Source of the DNA: a virus
Direction: 5' to 3' (one strand)
Virus record (IMG/VR): IMGVR_UViG_3300021963_007290
Span: 1 to 64,000 of that record
Length of the DNA stretch: 64,000 nucleotides
In this document: positions 2,888 to 27,008 of the stretch, in pieces
Layout of the letters: each line of letters begins with the position of its first letter
Position numbering within the stretch: the first letter of the stretch is position 1
Made by a program: the position numbers and the translations under genes
The notes under the pieces: generated by a model
The model's database searches: none
What the model saw: only the letters and a program-made list of their open reading frames with translations
Told to the model about the DNA's origin: nothing

Positions 2888-3488
2888 TGAATGGTGGGCA
2901 GCCGAAGGGGATAAAACCCTCAGAATTTCATATCGACTAAATTCAAATTCGGTTGTTTTTGATTTGGGTGGATATGAAGGAGATTACTCTAATAAAATAT
3001 ATTCAAAATATAAATCTAACATTTATGTCTTTGAACCTTTGCCAAAATTTTCTTCTTTAATTAAAAGTAAATTTGAAAATAATGAAAAAATTAGAGTATT
3101 TGATTATGGAGTTGGTGGAAAAACAGAAGAACTTGAATTAGCTATATCTGATGACGCATCTTATTTGGTATCTCCAAGATCCATTGAAAATGTAGATAAC
3201 TTAGTTATTGAAAAGGTAAAAATTAAATCTTTTAACGATGCCTATGATGAAACTGGAGTTGATAATATTGATTTGCTAAAGATTAATGTTGAAGGTGCAG
3301 AATATGATATTATGCAAAATATATTTGATAACAATTTAACTACTAAAATTAATAATTTTCAAATTCAATTCCATAATATAAATGAAAATTCTGAAAAGAT
3401 GCTACTTGATATACGAAGAAAATTATCTAAAACGCATAGTCAAGATTGGTGCTTTAATTGGGTTTGGGAAAATTGGAGTTTAAAATGA
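2871..3488 (+). CDS. FkbM-family methyltransferase
   Basis: 205-aa S-adenosylmethionine-dependent methyltransferase of the FkbM type, a family that often O-methylates sugars. Seen: [13 protein letters not shown] (SAM-binding loop), YVFEPLP, and the late FkbM motif [20 protein letters not shown] 2871 has GGAG at 2857-2860 with good spacing; a GTG at 2865 is the alternative. It overlaps the end of gmd by 17 bases and the start of fcl by 4. Its place between gmd and fcl suggests methylation of a deoxysugar or glycan terminus; the substrate is inferred. Confidence 0.85.
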
Positions 3489-4414: not shown

Positions 4415-5570
4415 GTGGCCATTAATGAAAGATAACATGACTCTTATGGATAGAGTCCGAATGGCAAAGTTCTGTATGACCTCCGATAGGTTTACAAATG
4501 GACTTAAAGTTAGAGAATTTGAATCTGCTTGGTCTAAGTGGGTTGGTTCAAAGTATTCTCTTTATGTTTCTTCTGGAAGCACTGCCAACTATCTTTTGAT
4601 CGCAGCAGTCAAAGAAATCTATGGACTAAGGGATGGTGATAAGGTAGTTGTTCCTGCTTGCACATGGGTAACCAATGTCAATCCAGTATTTCAACTTGGA
4701 TTCCAACCAATATTCTGTGACGTAAACATTAATACCTTTACTTATTGCGAGCAAGATCTTAAGTTTATTGCTCAGAAGCATTCTGATATCAAGATGGTCT
4801 TTACCACGCACTTGATGGGGTTCCCAGCACCAGTTGAGAGGTATAAAGAGATCTTTCCAAATGCTTTGTTCCTTGATGATGTTTGTGAATCTCATGGTTG
4901 TCTGAATCCTGATGGAACTAAAGTTGGATCTGATAGTTTGGGTGCAACCTTTAGTTTTTACTTTGGACATCACATGTCAACTATTGAAGGTGGAATGATC
5001 TGCACAAACGATCATAGAATTTATGACATGATGCGTTTGAAGAGAAGTCATGGTTTAGCAAGAGAATCTGATAATAGGGATGTTTATTATGAAACTTATT
5101 CGGATTTAAACAAAGAATTTCTTTTCGTAACTGATGGTTATAATTTTAGAAATCATGAGTTGGGAGCTGTATTGGGATTGTCCCAACTCAAACGACTTGA
5201 TAGTATGATTGAACGGAGAAATGAAAACTATGAAAAATTTGTAAAGATTCTTTCAAATCATTGCAGTAAAGTTTATGTTCCTATTAATTCAAATAGATTA
5301 AGTAGTTTTTGCTTTCCTTTAATTTTTAAAGATAAAACTATCTCCGATCAATTTAAAGCATTATGTCCAATATATGGAATAGAACATAGACCTATAATTG
5401 GTGGAAATTTACTAAAGCAGCCATACTTAAATCATTATAAAATTACAACAATGAAGAGTAATCTTGATGTTGACACTATTCATGAGAATGGGATATACTT
5501 GGGGAATAATCATTTTATTGGAAATAAAGAGTTAAAACTTCTTGATAAAATCTTAAGTAAATTGCAGTAA
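4407..5570 (+). CDS. DegT/ColD-type PLP enzyme, likely GDP-4-keto-6-deoxymannose 3-dehydratase
   Basis: 387-aa member of the DegT/DnrJ/EryC1/StrS fold. In ordinary sugar aminotransferases the PLP lysine lies in a TKN..TGEGG motif; here the same place reads GHHMSTIEGGM, so the lysine is replaced by His188. E. coli ColD, the 3-dehydratase of GDP-colitose synthesis, also uses a histidine at position 188. Other PLP-site residues look intact (VSSGSTANYL, PACTWVTNVNP, LDDVCESHG). With Gmd upstream supplying the ColD substrate, removal of the C3 hydroxyl is the likeliest reaction. Overlaps fcl by 8 bases. An RfbH-like 3-dehydrase is an alternative; a normal aminotransferase is unlikely. Confidence 0.85.
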   Translation: MHKWPLMKDNMTLMDRVRMAKFCMTSDRFTNGLKVREFESAWSKWVGSKYSLYVSSGSTANYLLIAAVKEIYGLRDGDKVVVPACTWVTNVNPVFQLGFQPIFCDVNINTFTYCEQDLKFIAQKHSDIKMVFTTHLMGFPAPVERYKEIFPNALFLDDVCESHGCLNPDGTKVGSDSLGATFSFYFGHHMSTIEGGMICTNDHRIYDMMRLKRSHGLARESDNRDVYYETYSDLNKEFLFVTDGYNFRNHELGAVLGLSQLKRLDSMIERRNENYEKFVKILSNHCSKVYVPINSNRLSSFCFPLIFKDKTISDQFKALCPIYGIEHRPIIGGNLLKQPYLNHYKITTMKSNLDVDTIHENGIYLGNNHFIGNKELKLLDKILSKLQ

Positions 5571-5572
5571 TT

Positions 5573-6370
5573 ATGAGTTTTTCTATTAATCATCTTGGCA
5601 ATAATGGGCATCTTGGAAATCAAATGTTTCAATATGCATTTGTAAAGTCAATGTCCATTAAGCATAAAAGAATATTTTGTATTCCTCCGACAGAGGTTTT
5701 TGGTAAGCATTATTACCAAGATCTCTTTAGCAATATTGATGAGGCATTTGATATTAAATGTAAACGTTCGATGACTGATTATGGAAATCTTGTCGAACGA
5801 TTTTTTCATTTTGATGAGGATTTATTTGAAAATCCTCCAGAGCAAGATATTAATTATGTTGGATTTTTTCAGAGTCAGAAGTATTTTAAGCACATTGAGG
5901 GGGAATTGAGAAATGAAGATTTCCAATTTAAAAGAGAAATTCAAAATGCATGTGAACCAATTGTTGCCGAGATGCATAACAGTGATTGCATTGGAATACA
6001 CATAAGAAGAAATGATTTTCTGAAAAATCCAAATCATCCAGTGCAACCAAACTCATATTACGAAAAGGCATTGTCTGAATTTGATAAGGATCTTCCTGTA
6101 TATGTTTTTTCGGATGATCCGGAATGGTGTATGCAACAAAAGATGTTCGATGAAGATAGATTTTCTGTATCTGAGGTTGGGGATGCCTACATGGATTTAT
6201 ATCTTCTTTCTCAATGTACTCATCACATTATTTGTAATAGCACTTTTGGTTGGTGGGGGGCTTGGTTAGCTGATAGTATAAATGTTATAGCACCTAAAAA
6301 TTGGTTTGCTGGTGATTGTAAAGATCATGACACTAAAGACCTGTATTTAAAGCACTGGAAAGTAATATGA
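5573..6370 (+). CDS. GT11 family (alpha-1,2-fucosyltransferase-like) glycosyltransferase
   Basis: 265 aa, cytosolic. Seen: N-terminal HLGNQMFQYAF, the donor-binding GIHIRRNDF (HxRRxD) motif, VYVFSDDPEWC, and the C-terminal CNSTFGWWGAWL block, all diagnostic of GT11. Transfers L-fucose or a related GDP-deoxysugar to galactose in known members. A paralogue lies at 10765. It starts 2 bases after the ColD-like gene and overlaps the next start by 4, so it is probably cotranscribed with the genes making its donor. The acceptor is unknown. Confidence 0.9.
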   Translation: MSFSINHLGNNGHLGNQMFQYAFVKSMSIKHKRIFCIPPTEVFGKHYYQDLFSNIDEAFDIKCKRSMTDYGNLVERFFHFDEDLFENPPEQDINYVGFFQSQKYFKHIEGELRNEDFQFKREIQNACEPIVAEMHNSDCIGIHIRRNDFLKNPNHPVQPNSYYEKALSEFDKDLPVYVFSDDPEWCMQQKMFDEDRFSVSEVGDAYMDLYLLSQCTHHIICNSTFGWWGAWLADSINVIAPKNWFAGDCKDHDTKDLYLKHWKVI

Positions 6371-7740
6371 CCAAATTAGTTATCTTTGATTTAGATGGTG
6401 TTCTTATTGATAGTAAAGATTATCATTATGAAGCATTAAATAAAGCACTTGGACAACAATATGCTATCAATAAAGATGAGCATGTGAGCATTTATGATGG
6501 TCTCCCCACTAAAGCAAAATTAGAACTCTTGACCAAGCACAAAGGTCTTCCTGTAGATCTTTATGATAAAATTTGGAAAGATAAGCAAGAAGAGACACTT
6601 AAAATCTTTAATGACTGTGTTGCAAAGGACTATGAGTTGATGGGGTACTTTCAACAACTTGTAGATGCGGGATATAAGATTGCTGTTGCATCTAACAGTA
6701 TTCGGAATACTGTAAAGATTATTCTTTTGCGTCTTGGTCTTCTGGAATTTGTAGATATGTACGTCTCTAATGAGGACGTTGTTCGTAACAAACCATTCCC
6801 AGCAATGTATTGGAAATGCATGACTGCTCTTGGAGCACTCCCTGCAGATACTGTGATTGTTGAGGATAGTCATATTGGTCGTCAAGGTGCTCTTGATAGT
6901 AAGGCATATTTGGTTCCTGTAGAGAATCGCAAAGATCTTAATCAAGTAAAAATTGATCGCATTAAAAAAATTTTAAATGGGACAAAACAAAAAGTTACGT
7001 GGGAAAGTAAAAATATGAATGTTCTTATTCCCATGGCAGGAGCTGGCAGCAGATTCGCCAGTCAAGGATATACTTTCCCTAAGCCTTTGATTGAAGTTAA
7101 AGGCAAACCAATGATTCAAGTGGTTGTTGAAAATCTGAATATTAAAGCAAATTATACCTTTATTGTTCAGAAAGAACATTATGAAAAGTATAATCTTAAT
7201 TATTTACTTCCCCTGATTGTTCCTGGATGTAATATTGTTCAAGTTGATGGACTTACGGAAGGTGCTTGTTGCACTACTCTTCTTGCAAAGGAGTTTATCA
7301 ATAACGATGATCCTTTAGTGATGGCAAACTCTGACCAGTTTGTTGAGTGGAACTCTAATGAAACTCTCTATGCTTTCCAGAATGGTGAGATAGATGGTGG
7401 CATTGTGACCTTCCCTGCAACTCACCCAAAGTGGTCTTATGCTAAACTTGGTGAAGATGGTTATGTATCTGAAGTTGCTGAGAAGAAGCCCATTTCTGAA
7501 CACGCTACGGTAGGTATTTACTATTGGAAGAAAGGATCTGATTATGTGAAGTATGCTGAGCAGATGATTGAGAAAGATATTCGTGTGAACAATGAATATT
7601 ATGTTTGCCCAGTATTTAATGAAGCAATTGTTGATGGCAAAAAGATTCGCATCAAAGAGATTGATAAAGAAGGTATGTGGGGAATTGGAACCCCAGAAGA
7701 TTTAAATTATTTTTTAGAGCATTATAAGGGAGAGGTTTAA
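6367..7740 (+). CDS. HAD phosphatase / sugar nucleotidyltransferase fusion
   Basis: 457 aa in two halves. Residues 1-215 form a HAD hydrolase: FDLDGVLIDS nucleophile motif, VASNSIRNT, and VEDSHIGRQGA. From residue 217 (MNVLIPMAGAGSRF) it is an NTP-transferase of the dTDP-glucose/GDP-mannose pyrophosphorylase type, with FPKPLIEVKGKPM and a metal-binding VMANSDQ. It probably makes an activated sugar and removes a phosphate in the same pathway. The exact sugar cannot be read from sequence. Overlaps the GT11 stop by 4 bases. Confidence 0.85.
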   Translation: MTKLVIFDLDGVLIDSKDYHYEALNKALGQQYAINKDEHVSIYDGLPTKAKLELLTKHKGLPVDLYDKIWKDKQEETLKIFNDCVAKDYELMGYFQQLVDAGYKIAVASNSIRNTVKIILLRLGLLEFVDMYVSNEDVVRNKPFPAMYWKCMTALGALPADTVIVEDSHIGRQGALDSKAYLVPVENRKDLNQVKIDRIKKILNGTKQKVTWESKNMNVLIPMAGAGSRFASQGYTFPKPLIEVKGKPMIQVVVENLNIKANYTFIVQKEHYEKYNLNYLLPLIVPGCNIVQVDGLTEGACCTTLLAKEFINNDDPLVMANSDQFVEWNSNETLYAFQNGEIDGGIVTFPATHPKWSYAKLGEDGYVSEVAEKKPISEHATVGIYYWKKGSDYVKYAEQMIEKDIRVNNEYYVCPVFNEAIVDGKKIRIKEIDKEGMWGIGTPEDLNYFLEHYKGEV

Positions 7741-7743
7741 ATT

Positions 7744-8535
7744 ATGTTTGACATTCGCAAGTATGGTAGAGTTTACCCATTCAAATTTCATAATATTGAA
7801 ACTGATATAGAAAATAATAAAAAATATATTTCTAACGTCACAGAAGAAATATACCATACAGGTTATCCATGTAATTCTTATTGGACTTTTGAGTTTATTG
7901 ATATAATATCAAAATATATAAACTTTGATGATGTTAAAACTATTTTTGATGTTGGTAGTAGAGATTGCTATCAGAGTATCGAATTTAGCACTTGGTTTAA
8001 AAATTCTGAAATATATGCATTTGAAGCAAATCCCGAAGCATATAATACATGTTTAAATGTCTCTAATTCTTATAATAATATTAATGTTGTGGGAAAGGGG
8101 GTTGGAGAAAAAAATTGTAAATTGGATTTTTATATAAGTGATGGAAATCCAGGATCATCATCTTTATTGGTAGTCGAGCAAAAAAACATTCCAGAGTGGG
8201 GAAGACAGGTTAGATCTCATGTGGTTGATGTTGTTAGAATAGATGATTGGTGCGAAAGTAATAAAATCAATTTTCCTGATATTCTCTGGGTTGATGTGCA
8301 AGGATATGAGAATGAGGTTTTTAGAGGTTGTGAAGGTGTTTTAGATAATGTAAAGGCAATTCAAACTGAAATTAGTTTTGGTGAAAATGATTATGTGAAT
8401 GGAACAGAATTTCATTCTTTACATTCTTATCTTGAGAGTAAAAATTTTGAACTTGTTGGTGCAATTTTCCATGAATGTTGGAATGGAATTGGCGAAATAG
8501 ATGTAGTATATGTTAATAAAAGATTTAAAATATGA
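7744..8535 (+). CDS. FkbM-family methyltransferase
   Basis: 263 aa. Seen: IFDVGSRDCYQSIEFS SAM-binding loop, IYAFEANPEAYNTC, then DILWVDVQGYENEVFRG, the FkbM acidic motif. The preceding GGGAGAGG supports the ATG at 7744. Second FkbM gene of the island; likely glycan O-methylation, target unknown. It overlaps the next gene by 4 bases. Confidence 0.82.
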   Translation: MFDIRKYGRVYPFKFHNIETDIENNKKYISNVTEEIYHTGYPCNSYWTFEFIDIISKYINFDDVKTIFDVGSRDCYQSIEFSTWFKNSEIYAFEANPEAYNTCLNVSNSYNNINVVGKGVGEKNCKLDFYISDGNPGSSSLLVVEQKNIPEWGRQVRSHVVDVVRIDDWCESNKINFPDILWVDVQGYENEVFRGCEGVLDNVKAIQTEISFGENDYVNGTEFHSLHSYLESKNFELVGAIFHECWNGIGEIDVVYVNKRFKI

Positions 8536-9191
8536 AAATACACTGCATAGGAGATAGTCACTCTGCAGTTTTCAGTGGAGAAGAGAAGATGCAACCAGTT
8601 TGGCCGGATAGGGCATCAAACTTAATTCCATATTTTGAATCTTATCGAATAGGACCATCAACTGCTTATCAACTTCATAATAAACAGTCCATTATAGAAT
8701 CTGTATTACTTAATCCAAGTGTAAATGAAAATGATAAACTTATGTTTTGCTTTGGTGAAGTTGACATTAGAGCACACTTGATAAAGCAATCAAATTTACA
8801 AAACAGAAGTATTAATGATGTTGTATGTGAGTGTGTTTCTAGATATGTAAATGCTCTTTTGTACTATAAAAAATTTAATAAGGAAATATTAATTTGGGGT
8901 CCAATTGCATCTTGGTCGGATAAAAAACCATATATAGATTTTCAAACTAAAGAACCTGGACCTTCTTATGGATCTAATATAGAAAGAAATAACGTAACTA
9001 AAATTTTCAATCAATATCTAATTGACCTTTGTGTAGAAAATAACTTTCAGTTTGTATCTATTTTTGAAAAAATGTTAAATAATGATGGAACAACAAATCC
9101 GTATTATATTATGGACCATATTCATTTATCTCAAAATGCAATGCCTTTAATTATTAATGAGTTAAAAAATAAAAATATAATTAGTAATTAA
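8532..9191 (+). CDS. SGNH/GDSL-like hydrolase or acyltransferase domain protein
   Basis: 219 aa. The N-terminus IHCIGDSHSAVFSG carries the GDS block with the nucleophilic Ser, and MDHIHLSQNAMP near the C-terminus supplies the DxxH of the catalytic triad. CFGEVDIRAHL may be block III. SGNH proteins in polysaccharide clusters usually add or remove O-acetyl groups. No signal peptide, so action is probably cytosolic on sugar intermediates. Confidence 0.72.
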   Translation: MKIHCIGDSHSAVFSGEEKMQPVWPDRASNLIPYFESYRIGPSTAYQLHNKQSIIESVLLNPSVNENDKLMFCFGEVDIRAHLIKQSNLQNRSINDVVCECVSRYVNALLYYKKFNKEILIWGPIASWSDKKPYIDFQTKEPGPSYGSNIERNNVTKIFNQYLIDLCVENNFQFVSIFEKMLNNDGTTNPYYIMDHIHLSQNAMPLIINELKNKNIISN

Positions 9192-9192
9192 A

Positions 9193-9894
9193 ATGAAATT
9201 TACTTTTGGAATTATTACAGATGGAAATTCTGATAACAATTTAAATCTAGTTATAGATAGCATAGAAAAACAATACATTTCAACTTTAGATTATGAAATT
9301 ATTGTAATAGGAAATAGTAAAGTAGATAGAAAAAATACTTTAGTGATGCCATTTGATGATAGCATTAAAAGTAAATGGATAACTAGAAAAAAAAATTTAA
9401 TAACTAAAAATGCAAAATATGAGAATATTGTTTATATGCATGACTACATTGCTTTGGAAGATAATTGGTATGAAGGATATTTAAGTTTTGGTGAAGAATT
9501 TAAAGTTTGTACGAACGTACTTCTTAATGCAGATAATACTAGGTGGCGTGATTGGGTAATCTGGCCACACAATCTTAACGAAATGGATGATATTGTAAAC
9601 CCAAGTAGGGAATGTATATTTTCTTATGATATTACTCATTTATCAAAGTATCAATATATTTCTGGATCATATTGGATTGCAAAAAAGCATGTAATGATTG
9701 AGTTTCCTTTAGATGAAAAATTATCTTGGGGTGGAGGTGAGGATGTTAGTTGGTCTAAAGAAGTAAGAGAAAAATACGATTTTTCCATTAATATTAATTC
9801 CACATGCAAGTGTTTAAAAATGAAAAATAAACCATTTGAAATAGCGAGTGAAGAGATGAATGAAAAACTTAGAAATTTTAATAAGTTGAAATAA
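9193..9894 (+). CDS. glycosyltransferase, GT2/GT-A-like
   Basis: 233 aa. Opens with FTFGIITDGNSDNNL and DYEIIVIGN, as in GT-A folds; MHDYIALEDNWYE looks like the nucleotide-sugar DxD region, and LSWGGGEDVSWSKEV is a GGGED-type acceptor motif. Very AT-rich. Function within the glycan island is inferred; donor and acceptor unknown. Confidence 0.7.
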   Translation: MKFTFGIITDGNSDNNLNLVIDSIEKQYISTLDYEIIVIGNSKVDRKNTLVMPFDDSIKSKWITRKKNLITKNAKYENIVYMHDYIALEDNWYEGYLSFGEEFKVCTNVLLNADNTRWRDWVIWPHNLNEMDDIVNPSRECIFSYDITHLSKYQYISGSYWIAKKHVMIEFPLDEKLSWGGGEDVSWSKEVREKYDFSININSTCKCLKMKNKPFEIASEEMNEKLRNFNKLK

Positions 9895-9943
9895 TAGGAA
9901 TGGATATTAAAATCGTTTTAAAAACTTTATATTAAATATAACT

Positions 9944-10744
9944 ATGATAAAATTTAATTTATACGGTAATAATTTTACTCATTTGACTGGAGGAAATTTA
10001 GGTTATTCTACACACGGAAAAAAGTCAAAATATATTGAATGGGTTTTTGATGAATCATCCGATATTAGTTTTTATATTGATGATTCTTTAAGGCAAGCAT
10101 TTTCGCATAAAAATTCTAAGAAAAAATATGGATGGTTATTAGAATCAAAATACATTACTCCAGGAATTTATCAAGATGTTAGATCCAATTATGAAAAATA
10201 TTTTGAAGTATTTGAATCCATTTTTACTAACAGTAAAGAATTGACTAAAATTGATTCTAGATTTAAATGGTGTTTAACTTCTTCAACTTGGATTAAAAAT
10301 CCAAAAGTGTATGAAAAAACTAAAATGATTTCTATGATCTCTTCAAACAAAAAAATGTGTGAGGGTCATATTGAAAGATTGAAATGGGTTGAAAAAATAG
10401 GAGACCAAGTAGATCTTTATGGAAGGGGATTTAATGAAATAGAAAATAAAGAAGAAGGTCTTTGTGACTACATGTTTTCTGTTGCTATTGAAAATGGATC
10501 TTATGATGGATTTTTTACTGAGAAGATATTAGATTGTTTTGCTACGGGAACCATTCCTGTATATAAAGGAGCGCCAGATATTGGTGAATATTTTAACACC
10601 GATGGAATAATTCAGTTATCTGAAGAATTTGATGTTTCTGAGGAAATATATAAATCTAAACTTGAGGCAGTATATGATAATTTTGATAGATTAAAAAAAT
10701 ATCCAACGGGAGAAGATTTTATCTATACAAATTACTTTTTGTAA
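9944..10744 (+). CDS. GT10 family (alpha-1,3-fucosyltransferase-like) glycosyltransferase
   Basis: 266 aa. The C-terminal half has the GT10 signature FTEKILDCFATGTIPVYKG, preceded by MFSVAIENGSYDGF. This is the conserved GDP-fucose-binding motif of bacterial alpha-1,3/4-fucosyltransferases. A 49-base AT-rich gap precedes it, without a clear ribosome site. With two GT11 genes in the same island, several distinct fucose-type linkages may be made. Confidence 0.82.
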   Translation: MIKFNLYGNNFTHLTGGNLGYSTHGKKSKYIEWVFDESSDISFYIDDSLRQAFSHKNSKKKYGWLLESKYITPGIYQDVRSNYEKYFEVFESIFTNSKELTKIDSRFKWCLTSSTWIKNPKVYEKTKMISMISSNKKMCEGHIERLKWVEKIGDQVDLYGRGFNEIENKEEGLCDYMFSVAIENGSYDGFFTEKILDCFATGTIPVYKGAPDIGEYFNTDGIIQLSEEFDVSEEIYKSKLEAVYDNFDRLKKYPTGEDFIYTNYFL

Positions 10745-10764
10745 AATTGTAAAACATATAAAAA

Positions 10765-11571
10765 ATGATATCATTCAATTATCTTGGAAATTATGGACGA
10801 CTTGGAAATCAAATGTTTCAATACGCTTCTTTAAAAGGGATTGCGAGAAAACATGGTTATGATTTTTGTATTCCTCCAAAAGAAAACTTTGGAACCAAAG
10901 ATTCAAAAGTCCGTGATTCTAATTGTGACATTTATGATGTATTTAACTTGGGAAAAGAAAATGTCATTATTACTACAAATAATACAAAATTAAAAGAATC
11001 AACATTAAATTTTGATGAGGATTTATTTGAAACGTGTCCTGACAATATAGATCTTGATGGTTACTTTCAATCTGAAAAATATTTTAAACACATTGAAAAT
11101 GAAATACGAAAAGATTTTTCTTTTGATGAACATCTTTTATTGGATGCGACTAAATTTCTTGCTGAATTTTATTCTGGACAAGATGTAATATCTTTACACA
11201 TTCGTAGGACTGACTATTCGGAGTTTCCAAATCATCATCCAATTTGTTCGTTAGAATATTATGATGAGGCAATTTCACTCCTTCCCCAAGAATGCCCGAT
11301 AATTGTTTTTACAGATGATCCTCAATGGTGTAGAGAACAAAGTTTTTTTGATGGAGATAGATTTATTATTTCTCAAGATAATTCTGTAGATTTTGATTTA
11401 TGTTTAATGACATGCTGCGATTATCATATTATAGCTAATAGTTCTTTTAGTTGGTGGGGTTCTTGGCTTTCTAAGAGTAAACTTACAATATCCCCCAAAA
11501 AATGGTTTGGATCTGCATATTCTGATTGGAAGATAGAAGATCGAATTTTAAAGGAATGGGTTTCAATATGA
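10765..11571 (+). CDS. second GT11 family fucosyltransferase-like protein
   Basis: 268 aa, clear paralogue of 5573-6370: GRLGNQMFQYAS, SLHIRRTDYSEFPNHHP, IIVFTDDPQWCREQ, NSSFSWWGSWLSKS. Overlaps the next gene by 4 bases. Divergence between the copies suggests different acceptors or linkages rather than a recent duplication. Confidence 0.9.
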   Translation: MISFNYLGNYGRLGNQMFQYASLKGIARKHGYDFCIPPKENFGTKDSKVRDSNCDIYDVFNLGKENVIITTNNTKLKESTLNFDEDLFETCPDNIDLDGYFQSEKYFKHIENEIRKDFSFDEHLLLDATKFLAEFYSGQDVISLHIRRTDYSEFPNHHPICSLEYYDEAISLLPQECPIIVFTDDPQWCREQSFFDGDRFIISQDNSVDFDLCLMTCCDYHIIANSSFSWWGSWLSKSKLTISPKKWFGSAYSDWKIEDRILKEWVSI

Positions 11572-12203
11572 AAACATTAAATGATTATTTTGAAAAAATT
11601 TTTTGCATTAATTTGGATAAACGATTTGATAGATGGAAAGAATCTAGAAATGAGTTTGAAAAGCATAATTTGCAAGTTGAAAGAATAACTGCAATTGATG
11701 GAAAAATTCAAAATGTGAATACAAATTTAAAACCTGGGGAATTGGGTTGTATACTATCACATTTAAAAGTAATAAAAAAAGCAAAGAAGGATAATCTAAA
11801 AAACGTATTGATTCTTGAAGATGATGTTGAATTTGATAAAAATTTGAATCAATTATTTTTTGAATACGAAAGTCAATTGCCAAAGTGGGATATGTTGTAT
11901 TTTGGTGGCAATCATTCTTTTAATAATGTTTATATGCCCAAGCATAACGAGCCAATAAAGGTTTCGGAAAATGTATATAAAATAAGACAAATATATACAA
12001 CACATTGTTATGCGATTGATAATTCACTTTATGATATGATTATAGATAATGTTTCTCAAATGAGGTCGCCATTAGATGTAATATATTCAAGTATACATTC
12101 AAAATGTGAAACATATTTACTTAGACCTCATTTGGCCTGGCAAAGAAATGATTATTCTGATATAATGGAAAAAAGTGTTGATTATAGTTTTTTAAAAAAA
12201 TGA
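11568..12203 (+). CDS. GT25 family (LPS-type) glycosyltransferase
   Basis: 211 aa. Seen: FCINLDKRFDRWK, the ERITAIDG block, GELGCILSHLKVIKKA, and LILEDDVEFD with the metal-binding EDD. This is the GT25 layout of LPS beta-galactosyltransferases. ATG 11568 overlaps the preceding TGA; an upstream in-frame ATG at 11526 lies inside GT11. The protein ends immediately after the SVDYSFLKK tail, shorter than many homologues. Confidence 0.85.
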   Translation: MKTLNDYFEKIFCINLDKRFDRWKESRNEFEKHNLQVERITAIDGKIQNVNTNLKPGELGCILSHLKVIKKAKKDNLKNVLILEDDVEFDKNLNQLFFEYESQLPKWDMLYFGGNHSFNNVYMPKHNEPIKVSENVYKIRQIYTTHCYAIDNSLYDMIIDNVSQMRSPLDVIYSSIHSKCETYLLRPHLAWQRNDYSDIMEKSVDYSFLKK

Positions 12204-12916
12204 CTCCAAAAGTTTCTATTGCAATTCCCACATTTGAATCTTACGGAAAAGGTTCTGAATTTCTTGATGATCTCCTTAGAACTATAGAGATACAGACCTT
12301 CAAAGATTTTGAAGTTGTAATATCTGACCATAGTGAAGACAATGAAATTTTTGATAAGGTAGGTGAATTTGAAGATCGAATTAATTTTTGTTATTCTAAA
12401 AATAAAAATGACAAAGGAAATGGTCCTGCAAATACCAATAGGGCCATTGATATGTGTTCTGGAGACATTATAAAAATAATGTTTCAAGATGATTTTTTTT
12501 ATGATGATGAGGCACTTCAAAAGATTTATGATGCTCTAAGTGAAAGTGATAAAATGTGGTTACTTAATGGATGTAACCATACTGCTGATCATGGGAATTC
12601 TTTTTATTGGGATTTTTACCCAGAGTTTAATGATAAACTTTTAGATGGAGTTAATACGATTAGTTCTCCTTCTGTGGTTGCCTTTAAGAAGGAAGTTACA
12701 AGAAGATTCGATCCATCTTTGACTTTTTATATGGACGTTGATTTTTATTATGGAATGAAACTTGATTATGGAATGCCAATACTGTATAATGATATATTGA
12801 TTTCAAATAGATTTCCAAGTGATTATTCCGTAACAACAAACGTATCAAATAAAAATAAAGAGTATTATGAAAGGACTGAATCTGAATACTGTAAGAAAAA
12901 ATATAACCTCATTTAA
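12200..12916 (+). CDS. GT2 family glycosyltransferase
   Basis: 238 aa. N-terminal VSIAIPTFESYGKGSEF and FEVVISDHSED (UDP-sugar binding), then IMFQDDFFYDDE, the DxD-type metal motif. Starts by ATGA overlap with the preceding gene. Typical small GT-A enzyme of polysaccharide loci; specificity unknown. Confidence 0.85.
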   Translation: MTPKVSIAIPTFESYGKGSEFLDDLLRTIEIQTFKDFEVVISDHSEDNEIFDKVGEFEDRINFCYSKNKNDKGNGPANTNRAIDMCSGDIIKIMFQDDFFYDDEALQKIYDALSESDKMWLLNGCNHTADHGNSFYWDFYPEFNDKLLDGVNTISSPSVVAFKKEVTRRFDPSLTFYMDVDFYYGMKLDYGMPILYNDILISNRFPSDYSVTTNVSNKNKEYYERTESEYCKKKYNLI

Positions 12917-13613
12917 TGCACCATACGATCACCATGTAATTGAAAATTTTCTTCCAGAAGATATTGCTGAAAAAGTATCTGGTGAATTTTTTGAGTTTAA
13001 TGATGATCGTTGGTATTGCTATGATAATCCACTAGAAAATAAAAGAACAATACAGGATTGGAGTAAATTTCCTAAAAATACATATTCACTATTTCAGTAT
13101 TTTTGCTCTCAGCAATTTGTAGAGTTTGTTAAAGAAATAACAGGAATACAGAATCTTTATCCAGATTATGGACTTCATGGTGGTGGATGGCATATGCATG
13201 GGAGGGGTGGAAATTTAAATGTGCATAAAGATTATTCTATTCACCCAAAGTTAAACTTACAAAGAAAACTAAATCTTATAATTTATTTGTCTAAGGATTG
13301 GAATATATCTTGGGGTGGTGGATTGGAATTATGGTCTCATAATCAAGATACAAATAGACCATTAAAAAAGGAAAGGGTGGTAGAATGTATTTACAATAGA
13401 GCTATTTTATTTGATACCACACAAAATTCTTGGCACGGACTTCCTAATCATTTGACATGTCCAGAAAATGAGTATAGAAAAAGTTTAGCTATATACTATT
13501 TGACAGATCCTGTCGGCAAGGTAGAAGAAAGAACAAGAGCATTATATGCTCCAAGAGAAGAACAAGAAGAAGACAGTGATATTTTAAATTTAATTCAAAA
13601 AAGATCTATGTAA
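12867..13613 (+). CDS. 2OG-Fe(II) oxygenase (prolyl-hydroxylase-like)
   Basis: 248 aa. Double-stranded beta-helix dioxygenase with HKD (about residue 119, in LNVHKDYSI) and a distal His in NSWHGLP as iron ligands, and RKSLAIYYL at the 2-oxoglutarate site. Uses O2 and 2-oxoglutarate to hydroxylate a substrate. The ATG at 12867 overlaps the preceding gene by 50 bases; a later non-ATG start is possible. Embedded among glycosyltransferases, so it may hydroxylate a sugar or a glycan-linked protein. Confidence 0.82.
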   Translation: MKGLNLNTVRKNITSFNAPYDHHVIENFLPEDIAEKVSGEFFEFNDDRWYCYDNPLENKRTIQDWSKFPKNTYSLFQYFCSQQFVEFVKEITGIQNLYPDYGLHGGGWHMHGRGGNLNVHKDYSIHPKLNLQRKLNLIIYLSKDWNISWGGGLELWSHNQDTNRPLKKERVVECIYNRAILFDTTQNSWHGLPNHLTCPENEYRKSLAIYYLTDPVGKVEERTRALYAPREEQEEDSDILNLIQKRSM

Positions 13614-13627
13614 ATTTGGAGAGTAAA

Positions 13628-14278
13628 ATGATTGATTTTGTAATTCCTTCGATAGGAAGACCAACTATAATGAGGTCTGTTAAATCTTTGATTAATCAAG
13701 GTGCTATGTTTAGACCAAAGATTCCAGATTGGAAAGCTTTTGTCGGATTTGATGGACTTTCTAAAAAGCAAGTTGATCAAAATTTTTTGTTTGATGATAA
13801 ACGAGTTACTTATTTATTTTCTGAAAATAAATTGGGAGTTGTAGGAGATTGGGGGGAAGGATATTCTAAATCTAATGCAGGTCTTGTTAGAAATTGGATA
13901 ATTTCCAAGATCAATTCATCAAACGAATGGATTGCATTTTTAGATGACGATGACACTGTAAGTAATTATTATGTTGATACTTTTTACCTAGAAACTCAAA
14001 CTAAACAATTTGATTGTTGTGTTTTTAGAATGAGATATGATGCTGGTGGGGAAAAACTTATACCTCCTCTCGGAGTTAATGAAATTATTGAAAATCAAGT
14101 TGGAATTTCTTTTTGTGTTAACAAACAATTTTTGAAGAATAGTGGAGTGAAATTTGTGAATGACATTAGAGAAGATTATAAATTCTTGAAGGATTTGCAA
14201 AATGCTGGAGCTAAAATTCATATATCAAATTACGTTACTTATCATGTAAATAGCATTACTTATGATTATATTTTGTAG
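13628..14278 (+). CDS. GT2-like glycosyltransferase
   Basis: 216 aa. IDFVIPSIGRPTIMRSVKSL, WKAFVGFDG, then IAFLDDDDTVSNYYVD with the catalytic/metal Asp run, all GT2 features. ATG 13628 has GGAGAG 5 bases upstream; a TTG at 13616 is the alternative. Paralogous to the next gene. Confidence 0.8.
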   Translation: MIDFVIPSIGRPTIMRSVKSLINQGAMFRPKIPDWKAFVGFDGLSKKQVDQNFLFDDKRVTYLFSENKLGVVGDWGEGYSKSNAGLVRNWIISKINSSNEWIAFLDDDDTVSNYYVDTFYLETQTKQFDCCVFRMRYDAGGEKLIPPLGVNEIIENQVGISFCVNKQFLKNSGVKFVNDIREDYKFLKDLQNAGAKIHISNYVTYHVNSITYDYIL

Positions 14279-14286
14279 AAACTATT

Positions 14287-14919
14287 ATGATTAATTTTAT
14301 TGTTCCTAGTGTAGGCAGAAAAACATTAACAGATACTTTGAATTCTTTAGTAAATCAAATTAATAATGAATGGGAAGCTTGGGTTGGATTGGATGGCATT
14401 TGTGAAAGTGAATTTGATAAAGGTATTTTATTGAATGACAGCAGAATACATTATGTTTTTATTAAAGATAGGTTAGGTGATTTTGATCATAATCCTGCAG
14501 TTGAAAGACCAACTGGAAATGCTGGTAGAGTTAGAAATTATTTGATTTCTTTAATTGATAATGAATATGATTGGATTGGATTTGTCGATGACGACGATAC
14601 TTTAAGAGAAACTTACATTGATAAATTGATAGAAGAAATTCAATATACTTCTTTTGATTGCTGTATTTTTAGAATGATTCATGATGATAGAAAGAATAAT
14701 AGGACAGTGATTATTCCTCCTTATGGAATGAATCAAGTGGCGCAAAATTTTGTTGGAATATCGTTTTGTGTAAGTAGATCTTTTTTGAATAGGACCGGAG
14801 TTAAATTCACTAGTTCTTCTTTTGAGGATTATACAATGTTAGAATCTATACATAATGCAAATGGTGAGATTTACATGTCAGAGCATTTGGTGTATGATGT
14901 AAGACCCGCAGGAGATTGA
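14287..14919 (+). CDS. GT2-like glycosyltransferase, paralogue of the preceding gene
   Basis: 210 aa. INFIVPSVGRKTLTDTLNSL, WEAWVGLDG and WIGFVDDDDTLRETYID match the preceding gene block for block. Both also share FDCCxFRMxxD and VGISFCVxxxFLxxxGVKF. A local tandem duplication that diverged is the simplest reading. Confidence 0.8.
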   Translation: MINFIVPSVGRKTLTDTLNSLVNQINNEWEAWVGLDGICESEFDKGILLNDSRIHYVFIKDRLGDFDHNPAVERPTGNAGRVRNYLISLIDNEYDWIGFVDDDDTLRETYIDKLIEEIQYTSFDCCIFRMIHDDRKNNRTVIIPPYGMNQVAQNFVGISFCVSRSFLNRTGVKFTSSSFEDYTMLESIHNANGEIYMSEHLVYDVRPAGD

Positions 14920-14920
14920 T

Positions 14921-16048
14921 ATGGTTGTTTGTCCAAAATTTGTTACTATTCCAAGTTCTTGGGGTGTATTGAGAAAAACAATGCAACCAAAAGAAAATTA
15001 TGGTATGTCTTTTGGTAAGACATTTGATGAAACATATGATTATGATACTTTATTTTCTGGTGTTTTGAAAATAGAGGATACTCTTGTTATTACAGCTCCT
15101 CCTTTTTTAAATCTTTCTGACTTTATAAAAGATAACGTAATAATCACGGATGGTCAAAATGATATAAGTTTGACTTTTTATGATCTTGATAGGTCTGGTC
15201 TTGCCATTGGAAAAATATCTAAAGATGCAACTCATATCTATTTGAAATATAAAAATGAAGATCCATTGAAAATTGAAATTGAAGAATCATTCATACATAA
15301 GTTTTCAAATAAAAAAGTATTGTTCACAATGTTTAAAAATGATCCAAAAGAATGGATGTTAAACTGGGTTCAATATCACAATGAAGTTTATGGTATTGAT
15401 GGATTTGTTTTGTTCTCCAATAATACAGACAAATATACTTGTGAAGATATAGAAAATTATTTGCAATCTAATAATTATGAATTGGTGATAGTTGATTGGC
15501 CAATGAGATGGGGAGTACATGGTCCACCATGGGATTCTGATTTTTGTAAAATAGTTGGACTTCAATATTTGAAATATAAATTTGTATATAATTCTGAATT
15601 TGTGTTAAATTTAGATATTGATGAATATTTTGTTTCTAAGTATTCTATTGATGAAATTATTGAAGGAATGATCAATCAACAAAAAGATTCTATTAATATG
15701 GAATCTAAAAATATTTCCAGATACACTGTTGAAAAATCTCTCAAATTGAGTGATTATTATTGGTATCATGATGATGATATTGATATAAACAAAATGATTA
15801 AGTGGGTCACGCTTCCAAAATATTCAAGACAATATCCTTGGTCTACTCATTATATTTTTAGTCCAAATCGAGATGAAACGCAAGATTTTTATTATGCACA
15901 TCTAGCAATTCTTACTGGAGAACATCATATTAAAAACAGTACAGAAGTTGCAAAGCAAAGATTTATTATTAGAGAATCTGGAAATAAGGAGGATATTGTT
16001 TTAAGAGAAAACTTTAAAAAAATGAAAAGTACTATTAACGTATCATGA
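14921..16048 (+). CDS. glycosyltransferase, GT92/GT2-like
   Basis: 375 aa. Residues 1-125 show no clear domain. The rest (VLFTMFKNDPKEWMLNWVQY, DGFVLFSNNTDKY, NLDIDEYFV) resembles GT92 or the related GT-A fold, with DIDEY as the metal motif. GGAG lies just before the ATG. It overlaps the next gene by 4 bases. Specificity unknown. Confidence 0.7.
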   Translation: MVVCPKFVTIPSSWGVLRKTMQPKENYGMSFGKTFDETYDYDTLFSGVLKIEDTLVITAPPFLNLSDFIKDNVIITDGQNDISLTFYDLDRSGLAIGKISKDATHIYLKYKNEDPLKIEIEESFIHKFSNKKVLFTMFKNDPKEWMLNWVQYHNEVYGIDGFVLFSNNTDKYTCEDIENYLQSNNYELVIVDWPMRWGVHGPPWDSDFCKIVGLQYLKYKFVYNSEFVLNLDIDEYFVSKYSIDEIIEGMINQQKDSINMESKNISRYTVEKSLKLSDYYWYHDDDIDINKMIKWVTLPKYSRQYPWSTHYIFSPNRDETQDFYYAHLAILTGEHHIKNSTEVAKQRFIIRESGNKEDIVLRENFKKMKSTINVS

Positions 16049-16860
16049 ATATAGACAGAACTGAAAAAAATAAATCTGCATATAAGCTCAATGGGTTTGG
16101 TCCCATTTACTGCATTAATCTTGATGGGCAACCAGAGAGATGGGATTATATGAAAACTCAATTTGATTATTGGAATATTGTAGATTATACTCGTATCTCC
16201 GCTTATGACGGTAGAGAAGATGATTTAAGTGATATTATTAAAGGAACTTACCCAGAACTGATGACTTCTGGTGAAGTTGGATGTGTTACTTCTCATCTTA
16301 AAGCTATAAAACATTGGTATGAAACTTCCGATAGTCCTTACGCAGTCATTATGGAAGATGATTGCAACATTGATATTGCAAAATTTTGGAATTTTTCTTG
16401 GAAAGATTTTATTTCAAGGGCACCTTATGCTTGGGACATAATTCAACTCGCAATTATTTGCACTGGGGATATATATGTTCCAATTCATACGAGATTTGTT
16501 AATGATTTTTCTACCGCTTGTTATGTAATTACAAGGCACCATGCTCAAAAGTTATTGAAATATCATGTAAGAGGGGAAAAATATAAACTTGATAATGGAG
16601 TTAAACCTCGTCCAGTTGCAGATGATTTAATTTATAACTCTGGATGCACTTATGCTTGTCCATTGTTGTTATATAATCTTAAATTGGGATCATCAATTCA
16701 TCCAGAGCATATTGATATCTTCCATAAAAATTCTCATGATGGACTTTTAAATTTTTGGTCTCAGAAAGGATCAGAAATGACTCTTGAATCGATCACTAAT
16801 TATGATCCGTTTTTGGGTCGGATAACCGAACCATCTGGAGCAAAACGGGCAACCCCTTGA
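16045..16860 (+). CDS. GT25 family glycosyltransferase
   Basis: 271 aa. YCINLDGQPERWDYMK, RISAYDGRED, GEVGCVTSHLKAIKHW, VIMEDDCNID: the GT25 motif order. The C-terminal domain resembles that of the trifunctional protein at 28206. Last gene of the glycan island; its stop codon lies inside the -35 box of the porin promoter. Confidence 0.87.
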   Translation: MNIDRTEKNKSAYKLNGFGPIYCINLDGQPERWDYMKTQFDYWNIVDYTRISAYDGREDDLSDIIKGTYPELMTSGEVGCVTSHLKAIKHWYETSDSPYAVIMEDDCNIDIAKFWNFSWKDFISRAPYAWDIIQLAIICTGDIYVPIHTRFVNDFSTACYVITRHHAQKLLKYHVRGEKYKLDNGVKPRPVADDLIYNSGCTYACPLLLYNLKLGSSIHPEHIDIFHKNSHDGLLNFWSQKGSEMTLESITNYDPFLGRITEPSGAKRATP

Positions 16861-16890
16861 CAATTTCAAAAGCACCCTGTATGATAAATA
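16857..16890 (+). promoter_or_regulatory. porin promoter: sigma70-type with overlapping late box
   Basis: TTGACA (16857-16862), exact 17-base spacer, TATGAT (16880-16885). The -10 box runs straight into GATAAATA (about 16883-16890), a T4/cyanophage-type late box. The same overlap occurs at psbA and psbD. Confidence 0.85.
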
Positions 16891-16893
16891 CAT

Positions 16894-16930
16894 CGAGTTG
16901 AGTCGTAACAAAACTTAACTCGTTTTTCTT
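16894..16930 (+). terminator. terminator-like hairpin in the porin leader
   Basis: CGAGTTGAG (16894-16902) pairs with CTTAACTCG (16914-16922), with one G-U pair and an 11-base loop, followed by TTTTTCTTT. It stands just after the expected transcription start and before the porin ATG. It may end the glycan operon or act as an attenuator. Confidence 0.55.
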
Positions 16931-16954
16931 TAGTAAATTATTTTCTAATCGATT

Positions 16955-18436
16955 ATGAATTTTCTCAAACAACTGATGCTTGTCCCTGTTGCTTTGGGTC
17001 TTGTTGCTCCTGCTGCTACTGCCGCAGAACTCAATATTGAGGATGTCAGCAAGTACTCTTCTGTTGAACAGGTAACAAGCGTTACTCAATTCTCTGATGT
17101 TCAACCTACCGACTGGGCATATCAAGCACTCACTAATCTTATTGAGCGTTATGGTTGCGTAGCAGGTTATCCTAACGGCACCTATGGTGGTGGTAAGGCA
17201 ATGACTCGTTACGAAGCAGCAGCACTGCTGAATGCTTGCCTCGATCGTGTAACTGAAGTCACCGATGAGCTTCGTAAACTTCAGGCAGAATTCAAAGAAG
17301 AACTGATTGTTCTCCGTGGTCGTGTAGATGGTTTGGAAGCAAAGGTTGGTGTTCTTGAGGCAACTCAGTTCTCTACCACTACCAAACTGAAGGGTGAGGC
17401 TACCTTTGTTCTGGGTGGAGTTCCTGGACTTGAAACTAATGCTGGTGGAAACGTTGGCAACACCGCATTTAATTATGATGTCCGTCTGAACTTTGACACT
17501 TCGTTCACTGGTCGTGATCTCCTTCGCACTCGTCTGCGTTCTGCTAACTTCAGCAGTGATCCTTTCGGTTCTTCGTCTTCCCTGTTCAAACTGGACAAGG
17601 CAGACAACACTACTGCTCTGACTGGAGACAATGTTGTTCTTGATCGTCTCTACTATCAGTTCCCTGTGGGTGATAGTGTGACTATTACTGCTGGTCCTAA
17701 GGTTCGTAACACTGAGATGGCATGGGTTCCTTCTGCTTATAAGTCGGAAATCCTTGACTTCTTCCAAGTTGCTGGTGCTCCTGGTGTCTATAACAAGGCA
17801 ACTGGTGCTGGTGTTGGTGCTCAGTATGTTGGCAAAGGTGGATTCGTTGCTGGTCTGAACTATGTTGCCGAGAATGGTGAAGATAGTTCCACTGGTGTCT
17901 TTGATTCCGAAGGTGCTCTGAACTTCATTGCTCAGGTAGGTTACAAAGGATCTAACTGGGGTGTTGGTGCTGGTTATCGTTATGGTTCTGAGGGCACCCG
18001 TCCTCGCACCTACAATGGTCTCCTTGGTGCCTCTGGTGCTCTTGTAGATGGTCAAGAATCCAATGCCATTGCTCTTAACGCATATTGGCAACCTTCTGAA
18101 TCTGGTTGGGTTCCCTCCATCAGTGCTGGTTACGGATATAACTTCGTAAATGGTACTACTGGTGCTACCGATGCAACTGATTCGGATTCCTGGTTCGTTG
18201 GTCTTCAGTGGGCAGATGCGTTTGTTGCTGGTAACACTGCTGGTGTTGCTGTTGGACAGGCACCTTCTGCTGAAACCGCTGGTGTATCTGATGCTACGAT
18301 GCTTGAGTTCTTCTACAAGTTCCAAGTTACTGACAACATCAGCATCACTCCTGCTCTGTTCTACGTTGAAAACAATCAGCGTTATCAGGACAGCAGCAAG
18401 TGGGGTGGTGTAATCCAGACCAAGTTCACGTTCTGA
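16955..18436 (+). CDS. cyanobacterial SLH-domain outer-membrane porin
   Basis: 493 aa. Signal peptide at residues 1-23 (MNFLKQLMLVPVALGLV, cleavage near ATAA-ELN). An SLH domain at about 45-110 (FSDVQPTDWAYQALTNL, GYPNGTYGGGKAMTRYEAAA) would bind peptidoglycan-linked polymer. A short coiled coil follows at 95-130, then a beta-barrel to the end, closing in TKFTF with the C-terminal Phe needed for outer-membrane assembly. This is the layout of Synechococcus/Prochlorococcus Som-type porins. Base composition is visibly richer in GC than the glycan genes, suggesting host origin. Strong own promoter and own terminator make it a single-gene unit. Confidence 0.92.
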   Translation: MNFLKQLMLVPVALGLVAPAATAAELNIEDVSKYSSVEQVTSVTQFSDVQPTDWAYQALTNLIERYGCVAGYPNGTYGGGKAMTRYEAAALLNACLDRVTEVTDELRKLQAEFKEELIVLRGRVDGLEAKVGVLEATQFSTTTKLKGEATFVLGGVPGLETNAGGNVGNTAFNYDVRLNFDTSFTGRDLLRTRLRSANFSSDPFGSSSSLFKLDKADNTTALTGDNVVLDRLYYQFPVGDSVTITAGPKVRNTEMAWVPSAYKSEILDFFQVAGAPGVYNKATGAGVGAQYVGKGGFVAGLNYVAENGEDSSTGVFDSEGALNFIAQVGYKGSNWGVGAGYRYGSEGTRPRTYNGLLGASGALVDGQESNAIALNAYWQPSESGWVPSISAGYGYNFVNGTTGATDATDSDSWFVGLQWADAFVAGNTAGVAVGQAPSAETAGVSDATMLEFFYKFQVTDNISITPALFYVENNQRYQDSSKWGGVIQTKFTF

Positions 18437-18459
18437 TAAATCACTCATAATCTGAGTGG

Positions 18460-18486
18460 AACCACCTCTTCTTGGGGTGGTTTTTT
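18460..18486 (+). terminator. intrinsic terminator after the porin gene
   Basis: AACCACC (18460-18466), 9-base loop, GGTGGTT (18476-18482), then a T run. Confidence 0.85.
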
Positions 18487-24431: not shown

Positions 24432-24465
24432 TTGACAGGGATTGCTGACAGTGTTATTATAAATA
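24432..24465 (+). promoter_or_regulatory. psbA promoter: sigma70-type with overlapping late box
   Basis: TTGACA (24432-24437), 17-base spacer, TATTAT (24455-24460), overlapped by TATAAATA (24458-24465), the exact T4 late box. This should allow early host-sigma and late gp55/gp33 transcription of psbA from nearly the same start. Confidence 0.85.
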
Positions 24466-24622: not shown

Positions 24623-25702
24623 ATGACTGCTACAATTTCACAACAACGACAATCGAATACTTGGGAACAGTTCTGCAATTGGATTACTTCTACCAATAAC
24701 CGCATCTATGTTGGTTGGTTTGGTGTGCTGATGATCCCTTGTTTGCTTGCTGCCACGACTTGCTTCATTATCGCATTCATCGGTGCTCCCCCTGTGGACA
24801 TTGACGGCATCCGTGAACCCGTTGCTGGTTCTCTAATGTACGGAAACAACATCATCTCTGGTGCCGTTGTTCCTTCTTCTAATGCGATTGGTCTGCACTT
24901 CTATCCCATTTGGGAAGCTGCATCTCTTGATGAATGGCTTTATAACGGTGGACCTTTCCAACTTGTTGTATTTCACTTCCTCATCGGCATCTATGCTTAT
25001 ATGGGACGTGAATGGGAACTTTCTTACCGTCTAGGTATGCGTCCTTGGATCTGCGTTGCTTACAGTGCTCCTGTTGCTGCCGCATCTGCTGTATTCCTGG
25101 TCTATCCTTTCGGTCAAGGTTCTTTCTCTGATGCGATGCCTTTGGGTATCTCTGGCACCTTTAACTACATGCTTGTCTTCCAAGCAGAACATAACATCCT
25201 GATGCACCCCTTCCACATGCTTGGAGTTGCTGGTGTGTTCGGTGGTTCACTCTTCAGTGCTATGCACGGTTCACTGGTGACTTCTTCACTGGTTCGTGAA
25301 ACTACTGAAACCGAATCTCAGAACTATGGTTACAAGTTCGGTCAAGAAGAAGAGACCTACAACATTGTTGCTGCTCACGGGTATTTCGGTCGTCTGATCT
25401 TCCAATATGCTTCGTTCAACAACTCTCGTTCACTGCACTTCTTCCTTGCTGCCTGGCCTGTTGTAGGCATCTGGTTTACTGCTCTTGGTGTTAGCACCAT
25501 GGCATTCAACCTGAATGGTTTCAACTTCAACCAGAGCATCATTGATGGTCAGGGTCGTGTGCTCAACACTTGGGCAGATGTTCTGAACCGTGCTGGACTG
25601 GGAATGGAGGTAATGCACGAGCGCAATGCTCACAACTTCCCTCTGGACCTTGCTGCTGCTGAGTCAACTCCTGTTGCTCTCACTGCACCTGCCATTGGTT
25701 GA
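24623..25702 (+). CDS. psbA: photosystem II D1 protein
   Basis: 359 aa, five transmembrane helices, thylakoid; binds the primary donor chlorophylls, pheophytin, QB and the manganese cluster. Unmistakable: N-terminal [72 protein letters not shown], and C-terminal [17 protein letters not shown] with the processing site after Ala344. No intron. Phage-encoded D1 replaces photodamaged host D1 during infection. GC-richer than neighbours, as for a gene acquired from the host. Confidence 0.99.
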
Positions 25703-25891: not shown

Positions 25892-25925
25892 TTGACTTCT
25901 TTGTTAAGAAGTGTTAACATAAATA
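25892..25925 (+). promoter_or_regulatory. psbD promoter: sigma70-type with overlapping late box
   Basis: TTGACT (25892-25897), 17-base spacer, TAACAT (25915-25920), with CATAAATA (25918-25925) overlapping the -10. Same composite layout as psbA and the porin. Confidence 0.75.
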
Positions 25926-25946: not shown

Positions 25947-27008
25947 ATGGTTTCATCTACGCTCACACAATCAAATTCACAAAGGGGGTGGTTCGATGTC
26001 TTGGACGACTGGCTTAAGAGAGATCGTTTCGTTTTTGTTGGCTGGTCTGGACTTCTTCTTTTTCCCACTGCTTATCTTGCTCTTGGTGGTTGGCTTACTG
26101 GGACAACTTTCGTTACGAGTTGGTATACTCACGGGTTGGCAAGTTCCTATCTGGAGGGTGCAAACTTTCTTACTGCGGCAGTTTCTACTCCAGCAGATTC
26201 TATGGGTCATTCTCTTCTGCTTCTCTGGGGTCCTGAGGCTCAAGGGGATATCGTCAGGTGGTTCCAACTTGGGGGACTCTGGCCTTTTGTGGCACTCCAC
26301 GGAGCTTTCGCTCTAATTGGATTCATGCTTCGGCAATTTGAGATTGCCCGTCTTGTAGGCATTCGTCCTTACAACGCAATCGCATTCTCTGGTCCTATTG
26401 CAGTATTTGTTTCCGTATTCCTGATGTATCCACTGGGTCAATCCAGTTGGTTCTTTGCTCCCTCATTTGGAGTCGCAGCAATCTTCAGGTTCCTTCTGTT
26501 CCTTCAGGGTTTCCACAACTGGACTCTCAACCCCTTCCATATGATGGGAGTTGCTGGTATACTGGGTGGAGCACTGCTCTGTGCCATTCACGGAGCAACT
26601 GTAGAAAACACTTTGTTTGAAGATAGTGAACAAGCAAATACGTTCAAGGCATTTGAACCGACGCAAGAGGAGGAAACTTACTCTATGGTTACGGCAAACA
26701 GGTTCTGGTCTCAGATTTTTGGTATTGCCTTTAGTAATAAGCGTTGGCTACATTTCTTTATGTTATTTGTTCCCGTTATGGGTCTTTGGACTTCTTCTAT
26801 TGGGATTATCGGACTGGCTTTGAATCTTCGTGCTTATGACTTTGTAAGTCAGGAGATTCGTGCTGCTGAGGACCCTGAGTTTGAAACGTTCTACACCAAG
26901 AACATTCTACTCAATGAAGGTCTTCGTGCTTGGATGGCACCAGTAGATCAACCTCATGAGAACTTTGTGTTCCCCGAGGAAGTTCTGCCAAGAGGTAACG
27001 CACTGTGA
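25947..27008 (+). CDS. psbD: photosystem II D2 protein
   Basis: 353 aa, five transmembrane helices; D1's partner in the PSII reaction centre. [29 protein letters not shown]-type [37 protein letters not shown] and the terminal [20 protein letters not shown] with PRGNAL are D2 signatures. AGGAGG precedes the ATG. Separate promoter from psbA. Cotranscribed with a GTG-started 44-aa ORF overlapping its stop. Confidence 0.99.

Follow-up and report, generated by a model that had tools for sequence, protein, structure and literature searches.

A predicted wall-anchored SLH porin of T4-like cyanophages with a psbA/psbD-class promoter and a recurrent PstS neighbour

The viral DNA analysed here (64,000 nt, positions 1 to 64,000 of IMG/VR record IMGVR_UViG_3300021963_007290, hereafter the window) encodes an SLH porin whose phage relatives form a single clade of host-derived genes, whose promoter is of the same class as those of psbA and psbD, and whose counterparts in many related phages are followed by pstS. 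We consider it somewhat probable that this is a captured porin of the Som/OmpM type with a dual role, in which it would fasten outer membrane and wall together and let in phosphate and other inorganic solutes. The window belongs to a T4-like cyanophage record of 102,866 bp and carries genes for gp32, a helicase loader, head closure, baseplate, tail tube cap, PhoH and thymidylate synthase as well as psbA and psbD; the virus is one of freshwater picocyanobacteria. The porin gene adjoins many glycosyltransferase and sugar genes, and the region upstream of it (2865-16860), a long low-GC stretch of glycosyltransferase and methyltransferase genes, is apparently a surface-glycan island. The features of the porin unit and of the two photosynthesis genes are listed below.

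16857..16890, plus strand: composite promoter TTGACA-N17-TATGATAAATA, sigma-70 -35/-10 hexamers overlapping a T4-type late box (NATAAATA)
16894..16922, plus strand: 5'-proximal mRNA hairpin (CGAGTTGAG...CTTAACTCG)
16955..18436, plus strand: gene of the SLH porin (493 aa and stop codon)
16955..17023, plus strand: probable signal peptide spanning roughly residues 1-23, judged from the sequence itself (MNFLKQLMLVPVALGLVAPAATA)
17087..17239, plus strand: SLH domain spanning roughly residues 45-95, with 92% conservation across the phage homologues
17240..17365, plus strand: coiled-coil stalk, about residues 96-137 (AlphaFold helix 85-136)
17378..18433, plus strand: 16-strand OprB-type beta-barrel, residues 142-493, with C-terminal Phe
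17708..17800, plus strand: loop L3 (strands 5/6), residues 252-282, likely pore constriction if strand 1 runs outwards from the periplasm, 92% conserved
18442..18486, plus strand: small hairpin (18442-18458) and intrinsic terminator (10-bp hairpin at 18459-18483 with T tail)
24432..24465, plus strand: second composite promoter, upstream of psbA
24623..25702, plus strand: psbA (D1), same promoter class as the porin
25892..25925, plus strand: third composite promoter, upstream of psbD (25947-27008)

The reading frame contains no internal stops, and the description of its product as a full Som-type porin in the initial annotation is borne out. Pfam places an N-terminal SLH domain (PF00395) at residues 46-89 (E 7e-9) and OprB (PF04966) at residues 106-493 (E 7e-16), both above cut-off, and the NCBIfam model por_somb (NF033921, "iron uptake porin") spans residues 40-493 with 304 bits against a cut-off of 100; a signal-like stretch at the N-terminus and the C-terminal Phe can be read directly. 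The AlphaFold2 model, built from 25 viral homologues and of moderate confidence (mean pLDDT 63), has a 52-residue helix at 85-136 followed by 16 strands, the last ending at residue 492, and the best Foldseek matches among solved structures are Pseudomonas putida OprB (4gey), followed by general porins and by OmpM1 (8byt/8bym). PHROGs contains no family for this porin. The domain order is that of the cyanobacterial proteins SomA/SomB, Slr1841 and Slr1908, above the cut-off of whose family model the window porin scores, while OmpM1 of Veillonella parvula, which is not viral, shares the SLH domain, stalk and 16-strand barrel as a fold match with sequence similarity confined to SLH and stalk. The phage porin is probably trimeric, and on the modelled fold its insertion would be expected to change membrane permeability. 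The label of S-layer protein, which stands for an extracellular lattice protein lacking an outer-membrane barrel, does not fit it, since Pfam and the model both give it such a barrel. Antisense to the whole gene lies a 550-aa open frame (16796-18448, minus strand), which looks like a by-product of the codon bias of the porin.

The unit is also self-contained, as had been proposed: it has its own promoter, beginning at 16857, and its own terminator, reaching to about 18486. The promoter (TTGACA-17-TATGAT, 16857-16885) matches 11 of 12 consensus positions, and its -10 box TATGAT continues into ATAAATA, a late box for which the cyanomyovirus consensus is NATAAATA (PMC2984593). With sigma-70 hexamers overlapping this box it fits the composite early/late (middle-like) class of T4-like cyanophages; overlapping early and late promoters have been proposed as a middle mode in RB49 and S-PM2 (PMC2984593). 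By comparing porin upstream regions we derived the composite pattern TTGAC[AT]-N16-18-TANNNTAAATA, which occurs at exactly three sites in the 102,866-bp record, namely those of the porin, psbA and psbD, compared with none for the reversed pattern in the same record and none in first-order simulations of 128 kb. Across 20 records 27 such sites were found, 25 of them upstream of an SLH outer-membrane gene, psbA or psbD (16-strand porin 6, small-barrel SLH gene 3, of which one sits 530 nt upstream of the gene, psbA 13, psbD 3, unassigned 2). Of 59 unique porin upstreams 29, about half, have the pattern in a slightly looser form, and the others have the late box alone, often directly after a tRNA-Gly(TCC) gene. 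The codon usage of the porin agrees with this shared promoter class, for among 47 window genes scored, psbA and psbD aside, it ranks first in psbA/psbD-like usage, with gp32 next; its GC content is 0.47, against roughly 0.27-0.38 in adjoining genes. In the window a PhotoRC-II RNA (RF01717, 24495-24586) lies between the composite promoter and psbA. In two other phage records the psbA match is interrupted, by a gap of about 870 nt in L167 (S-SRM01, near 207175) and of 210 nt in L176, each gap resembling an intron or an inserted element.

The porin transcript would begin close to the leader hairpin, which occurs at the same place in most homologous leaders with differing stem sequences, and which is more stable (mean z -2.2 in 31 leaders) than control regions (-0.45 in 33); Rfam holds no family for this leader, and the hairpin, near the expected 5' end, may stabilise the mRNA. 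A differing N-terminal segment and a longer leader were observed in the phage porins of L019, L056 and L077. At the other end, the terminator region folds with a dG of -22.5 kcal/mol (z -5.0, equalled by 0 of 200 shuffles); a simple terminator scan overlooked it. A terminator lies 3' of the gene in 37 of 55 unique porin homologues, compared with 0 of 55 shuffles.

Searching phage genomes for SLH porins, a check that had been suggested, returned 294 IMG/VR loci encoding porin relatives, and among 50,697 phage records two full-length matches, both from Synechococcus phage S-SRM01, together with four SLH-only matches. The phage porin is thus missing from most isolate genomes yet common in environmental cyanophages, and the earlier remark that porins are not standard phage cargo is half right, holding for most isolates and failing for environmental cyanophages, S-SRM01 itself having a copy already annotated "porin". 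This protein (QPX48248.1) is a full-length homologue, 68% identical and with the same composite promoter, in a gene neighbourhood that differs from that of the window phage; no discussion of it came to light in the open-access literature searched. Identity to the window porin is at least 68% among the full-length phage homologues listed and 93% in a near relative of the window phage, L009, compared with 60-65% for the closest cyanobacterial SLH/OprB porins; in the host order 390 of 399 genomes have SLH porin relatives, the best at 65%. A phylogeny with host porins, likewise proposed at the outset, places the phage porins in one clade nested among freshwater Cyanobium/Synechococcus porins (SH-aLRT 99 in one tree, 100/100 in another). 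Unlike those porins, the window porin is phage-encoded, belongs to a monophyletic group of its own within the family, and combines a composite early/late promoter with psbA-like phage codon usage. dN/dS among phage porins is 0.15-0.29, indicating purifying selection; conservation is highest among the long segments in the SLH domain and L3 (92%), compared with 58-64% in L1, L6 and L7. The porin is therefore a host-derived gene maintained on a phage genome by purifying selection, as auxiliary metabolic genes are. It resembles psbA, psbD and pstS in its host origin and its retention in many phages, and the first two also in promoter class, and differs from all three in encoding an outer-membrane protein instead of a photosystem or periplasmic one. 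Near the porin of L040 a tmRNA gene is predicted (4430-4901) within a phage tRNA array.

The only "bacterial" entry in the phage clade, an apparent actinobacterial copy (L085, 76%), proved to be a phage contig in a MAG, its porin being flanked by genes for a sigma factor and the ribonucleotide reductase small subunit and by tRNA-Gly. Two MAG contigs, L085 and L127, go under the names Microbacteriaceae and Bifidobacterium breve but encode a cyanophage porin and cyanobacterial porins; they are mis-binned contigs in public genomes. That the window gene is a recent, functionless host gene, or that the record is chimeric or misassembled, might be suggested by a GC content above that of the neighbours and by the abundance of porins in the hosts. 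Host contamination or a chimera was rejected on the surrounding T4-like genes, the 294 viral loci and the deep single phage clade, and together with the purifying selection, the psbA-like codon usage, the phage-type promoter and the reassignment of L085 these already contradict this explanation, to which we attach almost no credence.

A pointer to what the channel may carry is its neighbour. Among unique phage porin loci, 20 of 50 carry PstS downstream of the porin, mostly at a distance of 120-160 nt and behind the porin terminator, compared with 1 of 52 loci of the small-barrel SLH proteins described below (p 8e-7). A PstS gene on the same strand, 228-342 nt downstream, also accompanies 9 of the 17 host porins that are nearest to the phage clade, compared with 1 of 87 other host porins (p 8e-8). 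Both are Fisher tests, in which relatedness among loci is corrected only incompletely. On the porin tree the presence of PstS changes 11 times or more, so the linkage is not an accident of one clade. Since the neighbour is common to the closest host group and to many phage homologues, the simplest reading of these sequences is that phages probably captured porin and pstS together. In the window phage itself pstS is missing from the 102.9-kb record, which may be a fragment; the near relative L009 has one. A motif seen in front of phage pstS, CTTAACCNNNNCTTAG, occurs in 33 porin-type locus records and in none of the small-barrel or host loci; we call it Pho-box-like only. A three-repeat Pho-box score did not rise above shuffles for the majority of the gaps between porin and pstS, nor did it pick up a signal in front of the porin, and control of the porin by PhoB is therefore not claimed. 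In L057 (4991) and L058 (5807) the same motif stands some 190 nt before the porin. No paper on cyanophage porins with PstS was found in the open-access text searched. The earlier suggestion that the porin increases nutrient uptake gains real support from the PstS linkage in phages and closest hosts alike.

A second kind of protein occupies the same genomic slot. S-PM2, S-CREM1 and 150 IMG/VR loci encode an SLH domain, stalk and small barrel ending in Phe; the model of this barrel is weak (pLDDT 57) and matches OmpA, OmpX, OmpW and PagL-type barrels; it probably has eight strands and is probably confined to viruses. It was found in none of 299 genomes of the host order, in a search whose positive control worked, and the idea that it arose from the large barrel was rejected, there being no profile similarity to the 16-strand family (probability 0.1%). 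A small-barrel relative, L187, scores with por_somb in the SLH/stalk part only and below cut-off. The S-PM2 "putative S-layer protein" (p170) and the S-CREM1 "iron uptake porin" thus share SLH, stalk and similar genomic slots with the window porin and differ from it in their small, unrelated barrel, and both labels are corrected accordingly; the window porin, which lacks the small-barrel domain of our alignment A6, is not of the S-PM2 type. Exactly one SLH gene was present in each of the 20 records examined, and both forms occur in two common settings, either behind the composite promoter or after tRNA-Gly(TCC) with a similar leader. In some small-barrel loci (e.g., L193 and L195) TTGACA lies inside a terminator-like hairpin just past the stop codon, with a TATATAAT-like box after it, so that the terminator seems to overlap the next promoter. 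Since small barrels are poor channels, as reported for a 10-strand case (PMC10628300), the feature common to both forms is a wall-anchored barrel, and uptake is not the whole story of the slot.

A dual role is favoured on the following grounds: Synechocystis SLH/OprB proteins are involved in inorganic-ion transport and in stabilisation of the outer membrane (PMC8707739), Veillonella OmpM1 is an SLH porin acting as tether and nutrient channel (PMC10628300), and the SLH gene of S-PM2 is among the earliest and most abundant transcripts of that phage (PMC2984593). Against it stand the low permeability reported for cyanobacterial SLH porins (PMC9705863), the lack of pstS in the window record, and the position of the porin amid glycan genes. 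In the scenario that we propose, a T4-like cyanophage lineage would have taken the porin once from Cyanobium-like hosts, probably along with the adjoining pstS. Early in infection host RNA polymerase would use the sigma-70 half of the composite promoter and later a gp55-type polymerase the overlapping late box, so that the porin may be made in quantity throughout infection, as would psbA and psbD. The product would pass to the outer membrane and fold there as a 16-strand channel, its periplasmic SLH domain gripping the peptidoglycan layer, and would stand in for host SLH porins once host synthesis is shut off. The outer membrane would thus stay attached through the phage porin, and inorganic solutes, phosphate first and perhaps iron, could keep entering for phage DNA synthesis.

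The same observations can be weighted towards the anchor, in that selection may have acted on an anchor that holds the outer membrane in place against the wall up to programmed lysis, with the pore secondary. This account is supported by the exchange, within one slot, of the 16-strand porin and the SLH protein whose small barrel is unrelated (OmpA/OmpX-like, at low confidence), by the alternative contexts common to both forms and by the single SLH gene per record, and loss of Slr1908 causes hypervesiculation (PMC8707739) as loss of OmpM causes detachment of the outer membrane (PMC10628300). It leaves unexplained, however, why conservation in L3 equals that of the SLH domain and why PstS is linked specifically to the channel form, and we judge it unlikely, though worth serious attention.

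Porins on phages are not confined to this family: the temperate phage PA-2 encodes the Lc porin in Escherichia coli lysogens, and BFVD contains OmpC-like and OprO/P-like phage porins, all of other porin families and with no SLH anchor reported. The PA-2 case lends itself to the further explanation that the phage fills the outer membrane with its SLH protein, which would displace host porins serving as phage receptors, a replacement raised by the initial annotation, or would hide the cell from other phages or grazers. To our knowledge no cyanophage receptor is an SLH porin, which speaks against such a role, and neither the PstS linkage nor the conserved L3 is explained by it. The variable parts of the porin are the exposed loops L1, L6 and L7, as a receptor swap would have it, but variable loops are usual in porins; the glycosyltransferase and sugar genes beside the window porin also fit, and a protective role has been proposed for the S-PM2 SLH protein (PMC2984593). 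Superinfection exclusion or a receptor swap of this kind appears improbable to us.

We return to the captured porin as probably both tether and solute entry. A wider reading, which we put forward tentatively as plausible but short of probable, is that T4-like cyanophages carry a dedicated outer-membrane maintenance cassette, always consisting of one SLH barrel per phage, either the PstS-linked channel or a virus-only closed barrel, and often under a promoter of the psbA/psbD class. The protein family and one phage copy, in S-SRM01, were already known; as far as our tools show, the single-origin phage clade, the psbA/psbD promoter class, the PstS linkage in phages and hosts, and the interchangeable barrels are new.

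Accounts of how phages take over cyanobacteria have centred mainly on genes for photosynthesis, carbon and periplasmic phosphate. A phage-borne, wall-anchored porin with a promoter of the psbA/psbD class and a PstS neighbour would mean that infection includes control of the outer membrane itself, and the phosphate route would then be complete, from outside the cell through the porin and onwards through the periplasm by PstS. Being rare in cultured marine isolates and common in environmental records, the porin also offers testable markers. If the cassette reading is true, anchoring of the envelope and entry of phosphate would rank with photosynthesis among the central parts of cyanophage takeover.
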